NCBI RefSeq assembly: GCF_028737255.1
Contig: NZ_JAQZAN010000018.1
Location: 62,001 to 126,000 of the forward strand
Direction: 5' to 3'
DNA length: 64,000 nt
Origin: Actinomycetospora straminea
GTDB lineage: Bacteria > Actinomycetota > Actinomycetes > Mycobacteriales > Pseudonocardiaceae
The position numbers and the translations under genes were made by a program. Each line of letters opens with the position of its first letter. Position 1 is the stretch's first letter. The notes below the pieces were generated by a model. The model was given only the letters and a program-made list of their open reading frames with translations, was not told where the DNA came from and made no database searches. Below, piece by piece: positions 6,943 to 48,939 of this stretch.

Positions 6943-8394
6943 GTGCCGGCACCTTCCGTGCGCTCCAGCAGCGCCGACGGCGCGGCCGTCCGGGGCCGCG
7001 TGGCCATCGACCCGAACGGTCCGGTCCCCGACCGGGCGGCGGCCGAGGCGTACGTGGCGTCGGTGTGCTTCAAGCACGGGCCGCCGCGGCTGGTCGGCAC
7101 CGAGCTCGAATGGCTCGTCCGCCACCACGACGACCCCACCCGCCCCGTCGACCCCGACCGGCTGGCCCGGGCCCTCGGCCCCCACGCCCCGGCCACGCTC
7201 TCGCCCCACCCGCCGTCGAACGGCTCCGGCCCCGCCCCGCTGCCCGCGGGCGGTGTGATCACCGTCGAGCCCGGTGGCCAGGTGGAGATCGCCAGCCCGC
7301 CCCTGCCCGGCCTCGGCGCCCTCGTCCGCGCCGTGCGCGCCGACCACGCCACGCTGCGCGGGCTCCTCGCCACCGAGGGCCTCGTCACCGCCCCCCGCGC
7401 CGGGGACGCGTTGCGCCCGCCGCGCCGCATCCTGCAGGTCCCGCGCTACGCGGCGATGGAGGCCACCTTCGACCGCATCGGTCCGCACGGGCGCACGATG
7501 ATGTGCTCGACCACCGCGGTGCAGGTGTGCGTCGACGCCGGCGAGGGCGGGGACGTCGCCCGCCGCTGGGCCGCGCTGCACGAGCTCGGACCCGTGCTGC
7601 TCGCCGCGTTCGCGAACTCCCCGGCGGTGCACGGACGGCGCACCGGCTGGAAGTCGTCGCGCTGGGCGGCCTGGATGGCCCTCGACCCGGAGCGCACCGG
7701 CCCGCCCCGCGTCCTCGGTCCCGATCCCGCCGCCGACTACGCCCGCCGGGCCCTGGACACCCGGCTCCTGTGCGTGCGTCGCGAGGGTGCCGACGGCGAC
7801 TCGTGGGCGGCGCCGGACGCGACGTTCGCGCAGTGGGTGGACGGCGCGCTCGCGCCCCCGCCCGGCCGCGCGGACCTCGACTACCACCTGACGACGCTGT
7901 TCCCGCCCGTGCGGCCGCAGGGCCACCTCGAGGTGCGCTACCTCGACCAGCAGGCCGGCGACGAGTGGGTCGTGCCGCTGGCCGTCGTGGCCGCGCTGAT
8001 GCACGACCCGGCGACGGTGGACCGGGCCCGCGCCGCCGCCGAGCCCGCCGTCGGCCGGTGGGCCGCCGCCGCCCGGCACGGCCTCGCCGACCGGGTGCTG
8101 CGCCGCGCCGCCGGCGACCTGTTCGAGCAGGCCCACCGCACCCTCGCCGGCCCCGCGTTCGCCGACCTGCCGCCCGACGTGCTCGAGCTCGTCGACCGCG
8201 TCATCGCCGAGCGCGTCCTGCGCGGACGGTGCCCCGCCGACGAGCCGCTCGACGCGGCCGAGACCTTCCTCCCGCCCGACCCCGCGCCGGTGATCCCGGA
8301 CGAGGTCGACGACCCGGTCGTCCTGGACACCTGGACCACCCTGGAGCCCCTGGACACCCCCGACGGCACCCGACCCGGAGGTGAGCGACCGTGA
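6943..8394 (+). CDS. egtA: Ergothioneine biosynthesis glutamate-cysteine ligase EgtA
   Basis: A 483-residue cytoplasmic enzyme of the GCS2/EgtA family that joins glutamate and cysteine to gamma-glutamylcysteine, the sulfur donor used by EgtB. Family features are the GTELEWLV segment near residue 50 (Glu pair for metal/ATP), the glutamate-binding region VEPGGQVEIASPP, and the MMCSTTAVQVCVDAG strand. It is somewhat longer than mycobacterial EgtA, mostly at the C-terminus (VIPDEVDDPVVLDTW and after). The GTG at 6943 has a strong AGGAGG six bases upstream. It is the first gene of the egtABCD operon and overlaps egtB by 4 bp (GTGA). Confidence 0.93.
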   Translation: MPAPSVRSSSADGAAVRGRVAIDPNGPVPDRAAAEAYVASVCFKHGPPRLVGTELEWLVRHHDDPTRPVDPDRLARALGPHAPATLSPHPPSNGSGPAPLPAGGVITVEPGGQVEIASPPLPGLGALVRAVRADHATLRGLLATEGLVTAPRAGDALRPPRRILQVPRYAAMEATFDRIGPHGRTMMCSTTAVQVCVDAGEGGDVARRWAALHELGPVLLAAFANSPAVHGRRTGWKSSRWAAWMALDPERTGPPRVLGPDPAADYARRALDTRLLCVRREGADGDSWAAPDATFAQWVDGALAPPPGRADLDYHLTTLFPPVRPQGHLEVRYLDQQAGDEWVVPLAVVAALMHDPATVDRARAAAEPAVGRWAAAARHGLADRVLRRAAGDLFEQAHRTLAGPAFADLPPDVLELVDRVIAERVLRGRCPADEPLDAAETFLPPDPAPVIPDEVDDPVVLDTWTTLEPLDTPDGTRPGGERP

Positions 8395-9749
8395 CCGCCA
8401 CGGACCCCGCACCCGACCGCACCGACCCTGCCGAGATCACAGCCCTGCGCCGCCGCCTCGCCGCCGAGCTGGCCGCGGCCCGCGCCCGCACCCGGGCGCT
8501 GACCCACGACGTCTTCGCTCCCGGCGACCCCGACATGACGCGCCAGCACTCGCCGCTGATGTCGCCGTTCCACTGGGACGTCGCGCACATCGCGAACATG
8601 GAGGACTTCTGGCTGGTGCGGCGGGGGTCGCCCACCAGCGAGATCACCGAGGGCGTGCGCGAGGACGTCGACGGCCTCTACGACGCCTTCACCAACCCGC
8701 GGGCCGGCCGCACGCAGCTCCCGCTGCTCGACCCCGCCGAGGCACGCGTCTACGGGGACCGGGTGCGCGAGCGCGCGCTGGAGCACCTCGAGGCCGGCGC
8801 GTTCGACGAGCGCCGCACGCTCGTTGGCGGGTTCCTGTTCTCCATGATCGTGCAGCACGAGCAGCAGCACGTGGAGACGATGCTCGCCACCCACCAGCTG
8901 CGCGCCGGCGCGCCGGTGCTGCACGCCGACCCGCCGCCGCCCGCGGTGGTGCCGGGCCTCGCGGGCACGGAGGTGTTCCACCCGGGCGCGACGTTCCCCA
9001 TGGGCACCTCCGACGAGCCGGCGGCGCTGGACAACGAGAAGCCAGCGCACCCGGTGACCGTGGCGGACTTCTGGCTCGACGCGGCGCCGGTGACCAACGC
9101 CGAGTACGCCCGGTTCGTCGACGACGGCGGCTACTCCCGCCGCGAGCTGTGGTCCGAGGCCGGCTGGGAGCACATCCGCGCCGAGGGCTGGACCGCGCCG
9201 ATGACGTGGGAGCGCGAGGACGGGCGCTGGTACCGGACGTCGTTCGGGGTGCGCGAGGAGATCCCGGCCGACCAGCCCGTGCTGCACGTGTGCTTCCACG
9301 AGGCCGCGGCCTACGCGGCGTGGGCGGGCAAGCGCCTGCCCACCGAGGCCGAGTGGGAGTTCGCCGCGCGTTACGACCACGCCACCGGCACCACCCGCCG
9401 CTTCCCGTGGGGCGACGAGGACCCGACGCCCGAGCGCGCGAACCTCGACCAGCGCCACCTGCAGCCCGCGCCGGTCGGCGCCTACCCGGCGGGCGCGTCG
9501 CCGCTGGGCGTGCACCAGCTCGTCGGCGACGTGTGGGAGTGGTGTGACTCGGGGTTCTCCGGTTACCCGGGCTTCGAGCCCTTCCCGTACAAGGAGTACT
9601 CCGAGGTGTTCTTCGGTGGCGACTTCCGCATGCTGCGCGGCTCGTCGTTCGGCGTCGGCACCCCGAACGCGCGCACGACCTTCCGCAACTGGGACCTGCC
9701 GATCCGCCGGCAGATCTTCTCGGGCTTCCGCTGCGCCCGAGACGCCTGA
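8391..9749 (+). CDS. egtB: Ergothioneine sulfoxide synthase EgtB
   Basis: A 452-residue non-haem iron enzyme that uses oxygen to couple hercynine (N-alpha-trimethylhistidine, from EgtD) with gamma-glutamylcysteine, giving the sulfoxide. The N-terminal DinB-like domain supplies the iron ligands: the HWDVAHIANMEDFW segment (about residues 62-75) and H156-x3-H160-x-E162 (HEQQHVE). The C-terminal formylglycine-generating-enzyme/FGE-sulfatase domain is clear (GATFPMGTSDEP, LPTEAEWEFAARY, GDVWEWCDSGF, FSGFRCARD). Length matches the family. GTG 8391 overlaps the egtA stop, indicating coupled translation. Confidence 0.95.
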   Translation: MTATDPAPDRTDPAEITALRRRLAAELAAARARTRALTHDVFAPGDPDMTRQHSPLMSPFHWDVAHIANMEDFWLVRRGSPTSEITEGVREDVDGLYDAFTNPRAGRTQLPLLDPAEARVYGDRVRERALEHLEAGAFDERRTLVGGFLFSMIVQHEQQHVETMLATHQLRAGAPVLHADPPPPAVVPGLAGTEVFHPGATFPMGTSDEPAALDNEKPAHPVTVADFWLDAAPVTNAEYARFVDDGGYSRRELWSEAGWEHIRAEGWTAPMTWEREDGRWYRTSFGVREEIPADQPVLHVCFHEAAAYAAWAGKRLPTEAEWEFAARYDHATGTTRRFPWGDEDPTPERANLDQRHLQPAPVGAYPAGASPLGVHQLVGDVWEWCDSGFSGYPGFEPFPYKEYSEVFFGGDFRMLRGSSFGVGTPNARTTFRNWDLPIRRQIFSGFRCARDA

Positions 9750-9755
9750 CCCACC

Positions 9756-10544
9756 GTGTGCCGCCACCTGGCCCATGTGGGCCCGACGCCGGTGACGCTC
9801 GCGTCGCTGCTGACCGAGCCGCCCCACGCCCTGCTGGTCCAGAGCTACGCCCCCACCGACATGCGCGGCGGCGGCACGGTCAACGCCGACGGGTTCGGGG
9901 TGGGCTGGTACGTGCGTGATCTTCTCAGCGATAGCTCAGAAGATCACGCACGGACGGCGCTGTACCGGCGCGACGACCCGATGTGGACCGACGCGTCGTT
10001 CCTCGACCTCGCCGCCGCGGTGGAGACCACCGCGCTCGTCGCCGCGGTGCGCTCGGCGACGGTCGGCATGCCCGTGTCCACCGCCGCGTGCGCGCCCTTC
10101 CGGGCGGACGGGCGGCTCTTCAGCCACAACGGGGTCGTGCGCGGCTGGCCGCACACCATGGCCGACCTCGCCGCCACGCTGGCGCCGGTCGACCTGCTGA
10201 CCCTCGACGCCGCGACCGACTCGGCCCTGCTCTGGGCCCTGGTCCGCGCCCGCCTCGCCGCCGGCAAGGACCCCGCCGACGCGCTGGCCGGCGTCGTCGC
10301 CGACACCCTCGCGGCCGCGCCGGGCTCCCGGCTGAACCTGCTGCTCGGCGACGGCGAGCAGATCGTCGCCACCGCCGTCGACCACGCGCTCTCGTACCGG
10401 ACGCACCCCGACGGCGCGGTCACCGTCGCCTCCGAACCCCTCGACCTCGACGACGCGTGGGTCGCGGTCCCCGACGGCTCCCTGCTCGCAGCCCGGCCGG
10501 GCACACCGCACGACCCGCCCGCCGTGACCGTCACGGCGCTGTAG
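9756..10544 (+). CDS. egtC: Class II amidohydrolase EgtC with an in-frame palindromic insertion
   Basis: A 262-residue Ntn-type glutamine amidotransferase fold enzyme that removes the gamma-glutamyl group from the EgtB product. After start removal Cys2 (MCRHLAHVG) is the N-terminal nucleophile. Other family signatures are NADGFGVGW (about 43-51), RSATVGMPVS and LFSHNGVVRGW. The GTG at 9756 lies six bases after the egtB stop. Compared with mycobacterial EgtC, about 12-14 residues are extra between GWYV and ALYRRDDPMW (residues about 53-66, RDLLSDSSEDHAR). These are encoded exactly by a 42-nt palindrome (listed separately). The insertion keeps the frame and is in a surface-loop position, so activity is probably retained. 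Confidence 0.92.
   Translation: MCRHLAHVGPTPVTLASLLTEPPHALLVQSYAPTDMRGGGTVNADGFGVGWYVRDLLSDSSEDHARTALYRRDDPMWTDASFLDLAAAVETTALVAAVRSATVGMPVSTAACAPFRADGRLFSHNGVVRGWPHTMADLAATLAPVDLLTLDAATDSALLWALVRARLAAGKDPADALAGVVADTLAAAPGSRLNLLLGDGEQIVATAVDHALSYRTHPDGAVTVASEPLDLDDAWVAVPDGSLLAARPGTPHDPPAVTVTAL
9911..9952. repeat. 42-nt palindrome inserted in frame in egtC
   Basis: The 15-base arms CGTGCGTGATCTTCT (9911-9925) and AGAAGATCACGCACG (9938-9952) are perfectly complementary. Inside them, after one C-C mismatch, AGC (9927-9929) pairs with GCT (9934-9936) around a GATA loop. The stretch is 42 nt, a multiple of three, is less GC-rich than the flanking egtC sequence, and encodes the extra residues of EgtC. 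A terminator or attenuator in mid-gene is implausible. Confidence 0.85.
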
Positions 10545-10627: not shown

Positions 10628-11599
10628 ATGAGCCTGCCCGCGCTCGACGTACACCTCACCGAAGCCGACGCCGAGGCCGCCCTCCGGGCCGACGCGCGGC
10701 GCGGTCTGACCTCGACCCCGAAGGTGCTCACCCCGCAGTGGCTCTACGACGCCCGGGGGAGCGAGCTGTTCGAGCAGATCACCGCGCTGCCGGAGTACTA
10801 CCCCTTCACCGCCGAGCGCGAGGCCCTCACGGCGCACGCGGACACGATCGCCCGCGCCGCGGCCGCGGACACCCTCGTCGAGCTGGGGTCGGGGTCGTCG
10901 TCGAAGACCCCGCTGCTGCTCGACGCCCTGCAGCGGGCGGGCACGCTGCGGCGCTACGTGCCGGTGGACGTGTCGCCGGCGGCGCTCGAGGAGGCGGTGC
11001 CGGGGCTGGTCGCGGCCTACCCGGGGCTCGACGTGCACGGCGTCGTCGCCGACTTCACCAGCGACCTGCGCAGCATCCCCCGCGACGGGCGGCGGATCGT
11101 GGCCCTGCTCGGCGGGACGCTCGGCAACTTCGAGCCCGGCGACCGCCAGGCCTTCCTCGCCGCCCTCGCCGACGCGCTCGACCCGGGGGAGGCGTTCCTC
11201 GTCGGCACCGACCTCGCCAAGGACGAGGCGACACTCGTCGCCGCCTACGACGACGCCGAGGGCGTGACCGCGGCGTTCGACCTCAACGTGCTCGCGGTAC
11301 TCAACCGCGTGCTCGGCGCCGACTTCGACCCCGACGGCTTCGAGCACCTCGCCATCTGGGTGCCGCAGGCGAGCCGGATCGAGATGCGGCTGCGGGCCCG
11401 GCGGGCGATGCACGTGCGGGTGCCCGAGCTGGACCTCGAGATCGACTTCACCGCGGGCGAGGAGATGCGCACCGAGATATCGACGAAGTTCACGCGCGAG
11501 GGCATCCGCGCGGAGCTGGCCGCCGCGGGGTTCGCCCACGACGGCTGGTTCACCGACCCGCAGGGCCGGTTCGCGCTGTCCCTCGCCGTGCGTCGCTGA
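10628..11599 (+). CDS. egtD: L-histidine N-alpha-methyltransferase EgtD
   Basis: A 323-residue SAM-dependent enzyme that trimethylates histidine to hercynine, the first step of ergothioneine synthesis. Recognisable are the EgtD-specific N-terminal PKVLTPQWLYDARGSELFEQI and PEYYPFTAERE segments, the SAM site LVELGSGSSSKTPLLL (about residues 84-99), LLGGTLGNFEP, and the C-terminal EEMRTEISTKFTREGI substrate region. The ATG at 10628 precedes the conserved start. It is separated from egtC by an 83-bp gap, so it may have its own promoter or be read through. Its last 50 bp overlap the convergent roadblock-like gene. No egtE lies downstream. Confidence 0.94.
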   Translation: MSLPALDVHLTEADAEAALRADARRGLTSTPKVLTPQWLYDARGSELFEQITALPEYYPFTAEREALTAHADTIARAAAADTLVELGSGSSSKTPLLLDALQRAGTLRRYVPVDVSPAALEEAVPGLVAAYPGLDVHGVVADFTSDLRSIPRDGRRIVALLGGTLGNFEPGDRQAFLAALADALDPGEAFLVGTDLAKDEATLVAAYDDAEGVTAAFDLNVLAVLNRVLGADFDPDGFEHLAIWVPQASRIEMRLRARRAMHVRVPELDLEIDFTAGEEMRTEISTKFTREGIRAELAAAGFAHDGWFTDPQGRFALSLAVRR

Positions 11600-47821: not shown

Positions 47822-48888
47822 TCGGCGGTGATGATGGCGGGGTGGCCGACACCGTGAGCCCGCCCCTCCCCGTCCGCCTGCACCTCGGCGCGCACGCCCC
47901 CACCGCCGGCCTCGACCTCTCGGGCGTGGCCGTCGCGGGCGACACGATGTTCCTCGCCCCGGACGAGGGCTCCTCGTTGCTGCGGCTGCGCCGGGTGCCC
48001 GGGGGCTCGCTCGACTGGGAGGACCCGCAGGAGGTCCCGCTCCACGACGCGGTCGGGCTGCGCGGCACGCCCGAGGACGAGGTCGACGCCGAGGGCCTCG
48101 ACGTGGTCGACGGCTGCCTGTGGGTCGCGGGGTCGCACAGCGCCAAGCGGCGGCGGATCCGGCCCGAGACCCCGACCGAGGACGTCGGCGAGCGGCTCGC
48201 GCGGGTGACGCCCGAGAAGTCCCGTCGCGTGCTGGCCCGGCTGCCGCTGCGCGAGGGACCGGACGGGCCGGTGACCGTGCCGGCGGGGGAGGAGGTGCGC
48301 GGGCTCGGGGTCGCGGCGCGCCTGCCGTCGGGCAAGCGCGGCCTCTGGGGTGCGCTGCGCGACGACGAGCACCTGGGCCCGTTCCTCGGCATCCCGGGCA
48401 AGGACAACGGGTTCGACGTCGAGGGCGTCGCCGTGCGCGACGCCGCGGCCGGCGGGGGCGTGGTGCTCGGGCTGCGCGGGCCGGTGCTGCGCGGGTGGGC
48501 GGTGCTGCTCGAGGTCGCGGTGCACGCGGACGGGACCGAGCTCGTGCTCGACGACATGGCGAAGTGCTTCGTGGACCTCGAGGGGCTGGGGGTGCGCGAC
48601 CTCGCCCGCGACGGCGACGACCTGCTGGTCCTGGCCGGGCCCACGATGGTGCTCGACGGCCCCGCCCGCGTGCTGCGCCTGCCCGGCGGCGCCGCGGGCC
48701 CGCTGCCGCCGGCGATCCGGGCCGAGGAGCTGACGCTCGTCACCGAGGTCGCGGTGGGGCGGGGCTGCGACCGGCCGGAGGGTCTCGCCGCCCTGCCCGA
48801 GGGCCTGCTCGTCCTGCACGACACCCCCGCGCCCCACCGCCTCGACGGCGAGCACCTGGTGGGCGACCTGTGGGCTGCGCCCATGTGA
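47818..48888 (+). CDS. DUF3616 family protein ending in a palindrome
   Basis: A 356-residue protein with the DUF3616 beta-propeller-like pattern: LDLSGVAVAGDTMFLAPDEGSS, DAEGLDVVDGCLWVAGSHSAKR, FDVEGVAVRDAA and DLEGLGVRDLARDGDDLLVLAG, RPEGLAALPEGLLVLHD (each ending a blade). Function is unknown, possibly a binding or hydrolase scaffold. GTG 47818 overlaps the lipoprotein stop; GTG 47842 is an alternative. The last seven or so residues (DLWAAPM) and the stop codon are encoded by the left arm of a 70-nt palindrome, which probably replaced the original 3' end. Confidence 0.82.
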   Translation: MIGGDDGGVADTVSPPLPVRLHLGAHAPTAGLDLSGVAVAGDTMFLAPDEGSSLLRLRRVPGGSLDWEDPQEVPLHDAVGLRGTPEDEVDAEGLDVVDGCLWVAGSHSAKRRRIRPETPTEDVGERLARVTPEKSRRVLARLPLREGPDGPVTVPAGEEVRGLGVAARLPSGKRGLWGALRDDEHLGPFLGIPGKDNGFDVEGVAVRDAAAGGGVVLGLRGPVLRGWAVLLEVAVHADGTELVLDDMAKCFVDLEGLGVRDLARDGDDLLVLAGPTMVLDGPARVLRLPGGAAGPLPPAIRAEELTLVTEVAVGRGCDRPEGLAALPEGLLVLHDTPAPHRLDGEHLVGDLWAAPM

Positions 48889-48939
48889 GCAGAAAGAAGT
48901 GCTCCAGCACTTCTTTCTGCTCACGTGCGCGCAGCCCAC
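48870..48939. repeat. 70-nt near-perfect palindrome over the 3' end of the DUF3616 gene
   Basis: Outer arms GTGGGCTGCGC (48870-48880) and GCGCAGCCCAC (48929-48939) and inner arms GTGAGCAGAAAGAAGTGCT (48885-48903) and AGCACTTCTTTCTGCTCAC (48906-48924) are all perfect. Three of the four bases between them also pair, leaving one C-C mismatch and a CC loop. It contains the stop codon of the DUF3616 gene and lies 98 bp before ctaD. The inner arm is AT-rich compared with everything around it. It may terminate transcription, but it is unusually long for that. Confidence 0.85.

Follow-up and report, generated by a model that had tools for sequence, protein, structure and literature searches.

A dispersed 42-nt palindrome of Actinomycetospora, in frame within egtC, whose arms differ between species at conserved places

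Four consecutive genes of an operon-like run lie on the forward strand near the start of the window, the 64,000-nucleotide stretch of Actinomycetospora straminea DNA analysed here. The gene egtC (9756–10544, GTG start at 9756, 262 aa) is located between egtB (8391–9749) and egtD (10628–11599, with the start taken from our own gene caller), and egtA (6943–8394) precedes them. All four products score beyond their NCBIfam cut-offs: 406.7 bits for EgtA (TIGR03444, cut-off 370.8), 401.1 for EgtB (TIGR03440, cut-off 360), 267.3 for EgtC (TIGR03442, cut-off 218.65) and 346.8 for EgtD (TIGR03438, cut-off 290.9).

A first-pass annotation of this DNA had described a 42-nt palindrome lying in frame within egtC, and this description is confirmed. 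Positions 9911–9952 (no strand assigned) read CGTGCGTGATCTTCT C AGC GATA GCT C AGAAGATCACGCACG, wherein a left arm (9911–9929, forward strand) and a right arm (9934–9952, forward strand) of 19 nt each enclose a GATA loop (9930–9933, forward strand). Fifteen perfect outer pairs are followed by one C/C mismatch and three inner pairs, giving 18 of 19 pairs in all. The palindrome runs from the third base of codon 52 to the second base of codon 66, matching the residues (about 53–66) assigned to it earlier, and with the first two bases of codon 52 it codes YVRDLLSDSSEDHAR. It is also AT-richer than its surroundings, as had been remarked, with a G+C content of 0.55 versus 0.77 for the remainder of egtC.

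The predicted RNA fold of the palindrome and its flanks (91 nt) reaches −53.3 kcal/mol, compared to −33.7 (sd 3.25) for dinucleotide-shuffled sequences (z = −6.0; none of 200 shuffles as low). An 11-nt core of the arm, CGTGATCTTCT, has 51 matches in the 6.29-Mb genome and its reversed control has none. Together these two results exclude a chance origin for the palindrome. At the gathering score there are no Rfam matches in the window or in three further loci (L031, L088 and L133), and plasmid and phage collections contain no match to positions 9905–9958 of the window.

A second palindrome in the window, at 48885–48924 (40 nt, no strand assigned, 18 of 18 pairs, GTGAGCAGAAAGAAGTGCT...AGCACTTCTTTCTGCTCAC), belongs to a wider superfamily. 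It adjoins a called gene at 47842–48888, for which the palindrome's TGA serves as the stop codon, and its type is found twice within 400 kb of contig C22.

EgtC was found in all 18 genomes of the genus, and in eight of these (G000, G002, G004, G005, G007, G008, G012 and G021) the palindrome follows directly after the residues GWY. The G007 gene runs off its contig and offers only the upstream flank. The ten remaining proteins lack the palindrome and differ in the loop, so none provides an exact empty site; for example, G011 reads GWF-TAA-GEPLLYRR where G005 reads GWY-VRDLLSYSSEDHAR-GEPVLYRR, giving three residues in place of 14. Likewise, alignment to the solved EgtC structure 4zfk shows nine fewer residues in 4zfk exactly at the palindrome. 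An AlphaFold model of EgtC made from a two-sequence alignment has a mean pLDDT of 30.9, and placement of the insert rests on the 4zfk alignment gap instead.

In a three-gene tree, from which G004 is absent, the insert-less genomes G010 and G011 cluster with G000 and G008 (support 0.974), and the deepest node uniting carriers has a support of 0.183. An exact probe from the MocR-type region matches G010 to A. succinea. The simplest reading of this distribution would be that the egtC palindrome was gained in an ancestor that the carriers share and lost from G010 and G011, although separate gains are also possible. On the sequence comparisons, egtC has apparently been occupied since before most carrier species split.

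The 51 arm-core matches in the A. straminea genome resolve into 35 places, of which five are single arms resembling chance occurrences and 30 are palindromic and align without gaps over 54 columns. The arm thus recurs well beyond egtC, an outcome opposite to the one named by the first-pass annotation as a refutation of its reading. A looser pattern, CGTGNGYG-N26-CRCNCACG, matches 42 places in this genome (two for the reversed control), although a few of these are plainly non-palindromic, and 46 distinct copies were placed in total. The family form consists of two 19-nt arms and a 4-nt loop, 42 nt in all, with CGTG and CACG at its ends. TATA is the commonest loop (75 of 167 copies). Several arm types coexist in one genome, among them A (CGTGCGTGATCTTCTGAGC), B (CGTGAGCGAAGTTCCCGGC) and D (CGTGAGCGAACTTCGGGGC). 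Arm variants seemed at first to be confined to one side, but the counts are low and contigs may be written in either orientation, and this idea was abandoned.

Across the 18 genomes of the genus, matches to the looser pattern range from 1 to 73 per genome. Eight of them are G001, G003, G006, G024 and G025 (1 each), G022 (2), G009 (6) and G023 (13), where controls give 0–2. When one genome from each of 84,980 species was searched with a pattern for the A, B and D types, 93 stretches were matched, and the 80 titles listed are all from Actinomycetospora. In a sample of 298 genomes of the order this pattern occurs in one, that of A. straminea itself, and is absent from G003, the other member of the genus sampled. 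A scan of 345–400 kb from each of G000, G008 and the distant G003 for palindromes of 18-4-18 geometry revealed that GTG is the commonest end triplet, and GTG-ended palindromes with at least 15 pairs number seven, seven and four, respectively. This excess in G003 suggests that the distant genome contains related palindromes that fit the wider geometry but have different arms. In two genomes from other genera of the family (G044 and G072, about 100 kb each), other palindromes are present and none has GTGAG or GTGCG ends.

Most copies reside at the 3′ ends of genes, a main habitat that the earlier reading left out, along with the turnover of arms between species. Among the 46 copies of A. straminea, 29 lie between convergent genes, 11 between tandem genes and one between divergent genes, with four inside a gene and one across a stop codon. 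Across 400 kb sampled from this genome, 66 of 377 neighbours are convergent pairs, with 2733 of the 36484 intergenic bases between them, and the 29 of 41 intergenic copies found between convergent genes correspond to p = 1e-13. Pooling A. straminea, the named contigs and G008 gives 161 placed copies (21 of 182, near locus ends, were left out): 94 convergent, 38 tandem, seven divergent, 19 inside genes and three across a stop codon. In this pool, orthologous copies from different species are tallied separately, and the copies from named contigs, having been fetched with a pattern fitting the main types, are not a random sample. The class counts are approximate, since genes were called with a simple script of our own that missed one coding copy (the A. 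cinnamomea egtC copy, L154:5999, called tandem).

The contact with stop codons is close. Copies are faced by 226 stop codons, 203 of which are no more than 10 nt away, and in 76 of the 226 the stop is the element's own TGA, at offset −9 in 41 and at offset −5 in 35. From position alone we infer that the family may provide a two-way hairpin 3′ end or a terminator at gene ends. Like intrinsic and bidirectional terminators, the copies form a strong hairpin directly after stop codons and are symmetric between convergent genes. However, they lack a T-rich tract (none of 334 sides has at least five T in the 8 nt after the hairpin), and their arms are long, fixed in length and common to many sites. 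Tandem and coding copies have 13 G-U, 20 A-C and 25 other mismatches on their sense strand; because G-U is not commoner than A-C, these give no sign of selection at the level of RNA.

A smaller set of copies lies within continuous coding sequence, judged by a coding signal on both sides and no stop codon through the element. This holds for 18 of the 161 placed copies, and 17 of these are in the same phase as the egtC copy. The single off-phase example (L127) forms just 15 of 19 pairs. The egtC phase is the consensus frame without a stop codon, and as it alone is stop-free, a copy inserted in either of the others would truncate the protein. Each coding copy is predicted to add about 14 residues, approximately [YH]VRDLLSYSSEDHAR for the A type and HVSEVPGYSRELRSR for the B type. 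Hosts include EgtC, a MocR-type regulator (GntR-aminotransferase) with the element in its interdomain linker, an HldE-like protein (PfkB-cytidylyltransferase fusion), a glycosyltransferase 9, an HpcH/HpaI-decarboxylase (aldolase/decarboxylase) fusion with the element near the domain junction, and NRPS genes; six of these proteins were assigned to families by Pfam. The proposal that the egtC insert is an in-frame coding palindrome of the Rickettsia kind is therefore supported by a dispersed family that recurs in the same phase in other genes.

Orthologues at three host genes were fetched by protein rather than by palindrome, yielding 27 orthologous copies: eight in egtC, ten in the MocR-type gene and nine in the HldE-like gene. 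Outgroup loci without a palindrome number eight for the MocR-type gene and seven for the HldE-like gene. At all three genes the position of the palindrome is kept, and the arms differ wholesale yet still pair. For egtC this also disposes of the other refutation named beforehand, namely that relatives would encode the same residues without symmetry; the carrier relatives code different residues, and the palindrome still pairs. Sister species exhibit complete swaps of type with flanks more than 90% identical. In the most extreme case, the egtC copies of G004 and G007 have upstream flanks that are 97% identical and elements that are 62% identical (16 of 42 bases differ), with 18 and 19 of 19 pairs formed, respectively. 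A fourth coding site with swapped arms, at the same position of an NRPS gene, carries HVSALPSHSSKDRSR in G008 (L276:1500) and HVRDLLSYSSEDHAR in A. cinnamomea (L129:2816).

When copies of the same gene from different species are compared, the identity of the element is 0.750, versus 0.891 for the 60-nt flanks (gap columns disregarded), and the element is the lower of the two in 98 of 109 pairs. Copies from different genes of one species share 0.827 identity (24 pairs), and copies differing in both gene and species share 0.729 (218 pairs). When species labels were shuffled within genes, 1 of 5000 permutations reached 0.827. Because likeness within a species thus exceeds likeness within a gene, replacement by other copies is suggested. 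The faster divergence of the element relative to its flanks could in part reflect relaxed constraint in the protein loop, as loops may evolve fast.

Individual genomes give the same picture of arms common to unrelated sites. The G007 egtC copy differs at only two of 40 bases from a copy elsewhere in its own genome (G007:C38:11016). In A. cinnamomea, which was matched to G005 by exact probes at egtC, the MocR-type gene and the HldE-like gene, one identical 42-mer occupies 19 of 35 fetched places, coding copies included. The HldE-like 42-mer of A. callitridis (G021) is present at five of 31 fetched places, its own site among them. The pattern is not uniform, however. A. callitridis mixes types, with an A-type copy in egtC and B-type copies in the MocR-type and HldE-like genes. 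Near matches (at most two mismatches) were lacking among the fetched copies for the G010 HldE-like element (0 of 22) and for the G002 egtC and HldE-like elements (0 of 10). Some copies decay, namely the HldE-like ones of G008 (13 of 19 pairs) and G007 (14 of 19). For single sites only, we used a hairpin synteny table whose rough mapping rule failed or was partial for many. One convergent site holds three different palindromes in G000, G008 and the distant G003. A clean empty site with both edges was not seen, and at one site G008 retains just GTGAG.

Arms that are common to unrelated sites require copying. Where both arms have changed together at an old site, either the whole hairpin was replaced or one arm was copied and the other subsequently corrected. 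We favor the reading, to which we assign a probability of roughly three in four on these comparisons, that the egtC element belongs to a dispersed 42-bp Actinomycetospora family whose members turn over by replacement with other copies of the family. A resident copy at a fixed place would be overwritten now and then by another copy from the same genome, through ectopic conversion or targeted re-insertion, such that both arms are swapped and the hairpin and reading frame are kept. Within genes, the element would be tolerated where an extra loop is harmless.

Weighing against this reading are the uneven pattern of types, the decaying copies and the want of a clean empty site, and no transposase has come to light. 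The RAYT-type transposase domain (Y1_Tnp, PF01797) was detected in none of the 18 genomes of the genus, 15 of which are at least 90% complete, in a search whose control detected it in five of 14 known genomes. It is conceivable, though we hold this only tentatively, that a dedicated, RAYT-independent process overwrites resident hairpins, with an agent that recognizes nothing but the CGTG and CACG ends and the 42-nt length and exchanges the interior for that of a different copy. If this were true, positions would outlast sequences, and coding copies too would be converted to whichever type currently prevails in the genome.

Strong covariation between the arms fits the favored reading as well as one of its rivals. 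Among 24 distinct copies, 93.0% of cells are paired, versus 79.2% in shuffled sets, and 70 cells are changed on both sides, versus 25.4 (sd 3.7); the covariation score is 0.387, versus 0.149, and slid registers reach at most 0.086. None of 500 shuffles attained any of these three values. Two further measures were matched by shuffles, with 10 pairs showing a double change (70 of 500 shuffles as high) and 17 further pair types (479 of 500 as high). This in-register covariation, together with the retention of the palindrome in coding genes over several species, is what would be expected if a hairpin were needed at each site, as RNA or as a cruciform, and changes in one arm were answered by the partner arm with no copying between sites. 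However, compensatory evolution of this type does not predict arms common to unrelated genes of one genome, as in the 1-in-5000 permutation result and the 19 identical 42-mers of A. cinnamomea, nor does it predict complete type swaps between sister species whose flanks exceed 90% identity. The sense strand also lacks a preference for G-U. We consider this explanation improbable.

A related proposal invokes template switching, a form of correction known for quasi-palindromes (PMC6649704, in the part of that article available), wherein a polymerase that slips at the hairpin uses one arm as the template for the other, such that a mutation in either would soon show up in both and the palindrome maintains itself without selection. 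Such correction accounts for symmetric change inside genes and probably helps to keep arms equal, but it acts at a single site and cannot give many sites one new arm sequence, which makes it unlikely as the full explanation.

Species-specific types at common places would also arise if the same nucleotide positions were insertion hot spots, hit anew in each species by its current subfamily, and some sites are indeed filled in just one of two close species. Independent insertions would nevertheless have to strike the same nucleotide in eight, ten and nine genomes at three genes of which the eight MocR-type and seven HldE-like outgroup loci are empty, and some chimeric arms are seen; we doubt that this occurred. 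Least probable of all is that the arms track the changing preference of a species-specific DNA- or RNA-binding protein, which would fit the constant ends and length and the variable interior, since several arm types exist within one genome (G021, G002 and G007) and copies in coding genes would have no need to follow.

Several known systems are comparable to the Actinomycetospora elements. In-frame palindromes are known from Rickettsiales and from a few REP-rich genomes. The Rickettsia palindromic elements are 105–146 bp long and lie in frame in 19 reading frames, and like the Rickettsia and Wolbachia elements, as described in the accessible portion of the source (PMC2229807), the present family is dispersed, occurs both between genes and in frame within genes of conserved function, and would add a short peptide. 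In common with that kind, it has many dispersed copies, in-frame copies in otherwise normal genes and related genes without the insert. The family differs in its length of 42 bp and in its phylum, and the likeness is one of the way of working only; descent from a Rickettsia element has no basis and was rejected. Moreover, Rickettsia elements are reported to lose the identity of their repeats over time (PMC6649704, available part), whereas the Actinomycetospora arms change together and stay paired.

REP repeats offer a second comparison. According to the available part of one account (PMC3733652), these are palindromes of 20–40 bp that lie mostly near the 3′ ends of convergent or same-way genes, often supply a stop codon and sometimes sit inside genes, and two Xanthomonas species have been observed to carry "different REPs" at approximately the same position of recB. 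The present family resembles them in its location near 3′ ends of convergent and same-way genes, in often giving the stop codon and in sometimes lying within genes. Unlike REP repeats, it carries no tag (among 334 eight-base sides 5′ of the hairpin, GTAG occurs in 5 and CGTC in 29), and the absence of Y1_Tnp from all 18 genomes led us to reject a RAYT-driven REP. The words Actinobacteria, Streptomyces, Frankia and Mycobacterium are absent from the main text of PMC3733652.

A third comparison is with the coding palindromes of nematomorph mitochondria, which are likewise perfect inverted repeats in coding sequence whose arms stay equal; these extend up to 284 bp and both of their arms code conserved protein, in contrast to a dispersed family that forms a variable insert (PMC6649704, available part). 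In the portions seen of the open-licence literature on bacterial palindromes and small dispersed repeats, we found no description of the Actinomycetospora 42-nt family. Although elements of this kind have precedents, what appears to be new is the host group, the constant 42-nt form that has neither tag nor RAYT and, above all, the combination of stable places with exchanged arms.

In this high-G+C actinobacterial family, and even inside enzymes, copies retain their place, frame and pairing when their sequence is exchanged, and site is thereby separated from sequence. The family provides a testable case for the spread and homogenization of short repeats without an obvious transposase, and for genes that gain and rewrite short peptide segments. 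Caution is also due, because part of egtC, and likewise part of any other gene here, may track the history of the repeat rather than that of the gene.

Several smaller observations concern the abundance and variety of hairpins. At locus L031 (G000:C19:27000–45000), four copies lie within 13 kb, including two coding ones (in the HldE-like and glycosyltransferase 9 genes), with a fifth at C19:48488, a density far above the genome average. The 84%-complete G007 genome yields 125 forward matches to a 40-nt pattern (control, 9), and many copies among the matches listed are of type GTGAGTGCTTGTCCGTGC, which is uncommon among the G000 copies listed. Two copies, G000:C6:46542 and G021:C11:43598, are chimeric, with arms partly of different types, and are possible traces of partial exchange. 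The distant G003 carries other repeated hairpins near gene ends (L317–L336), including TCCCGACGACGGGT and GTCGTTGCTGTC types. Finally, at locus L342 of G072, from a different genus of the same family, one 40-nt palindrome (AAGCGGGTCTCCGCAGCTGG...) occurs twice in identical form at a distance of 7 kb, so dispersed hairpins extend beyond Actinomycetospora.
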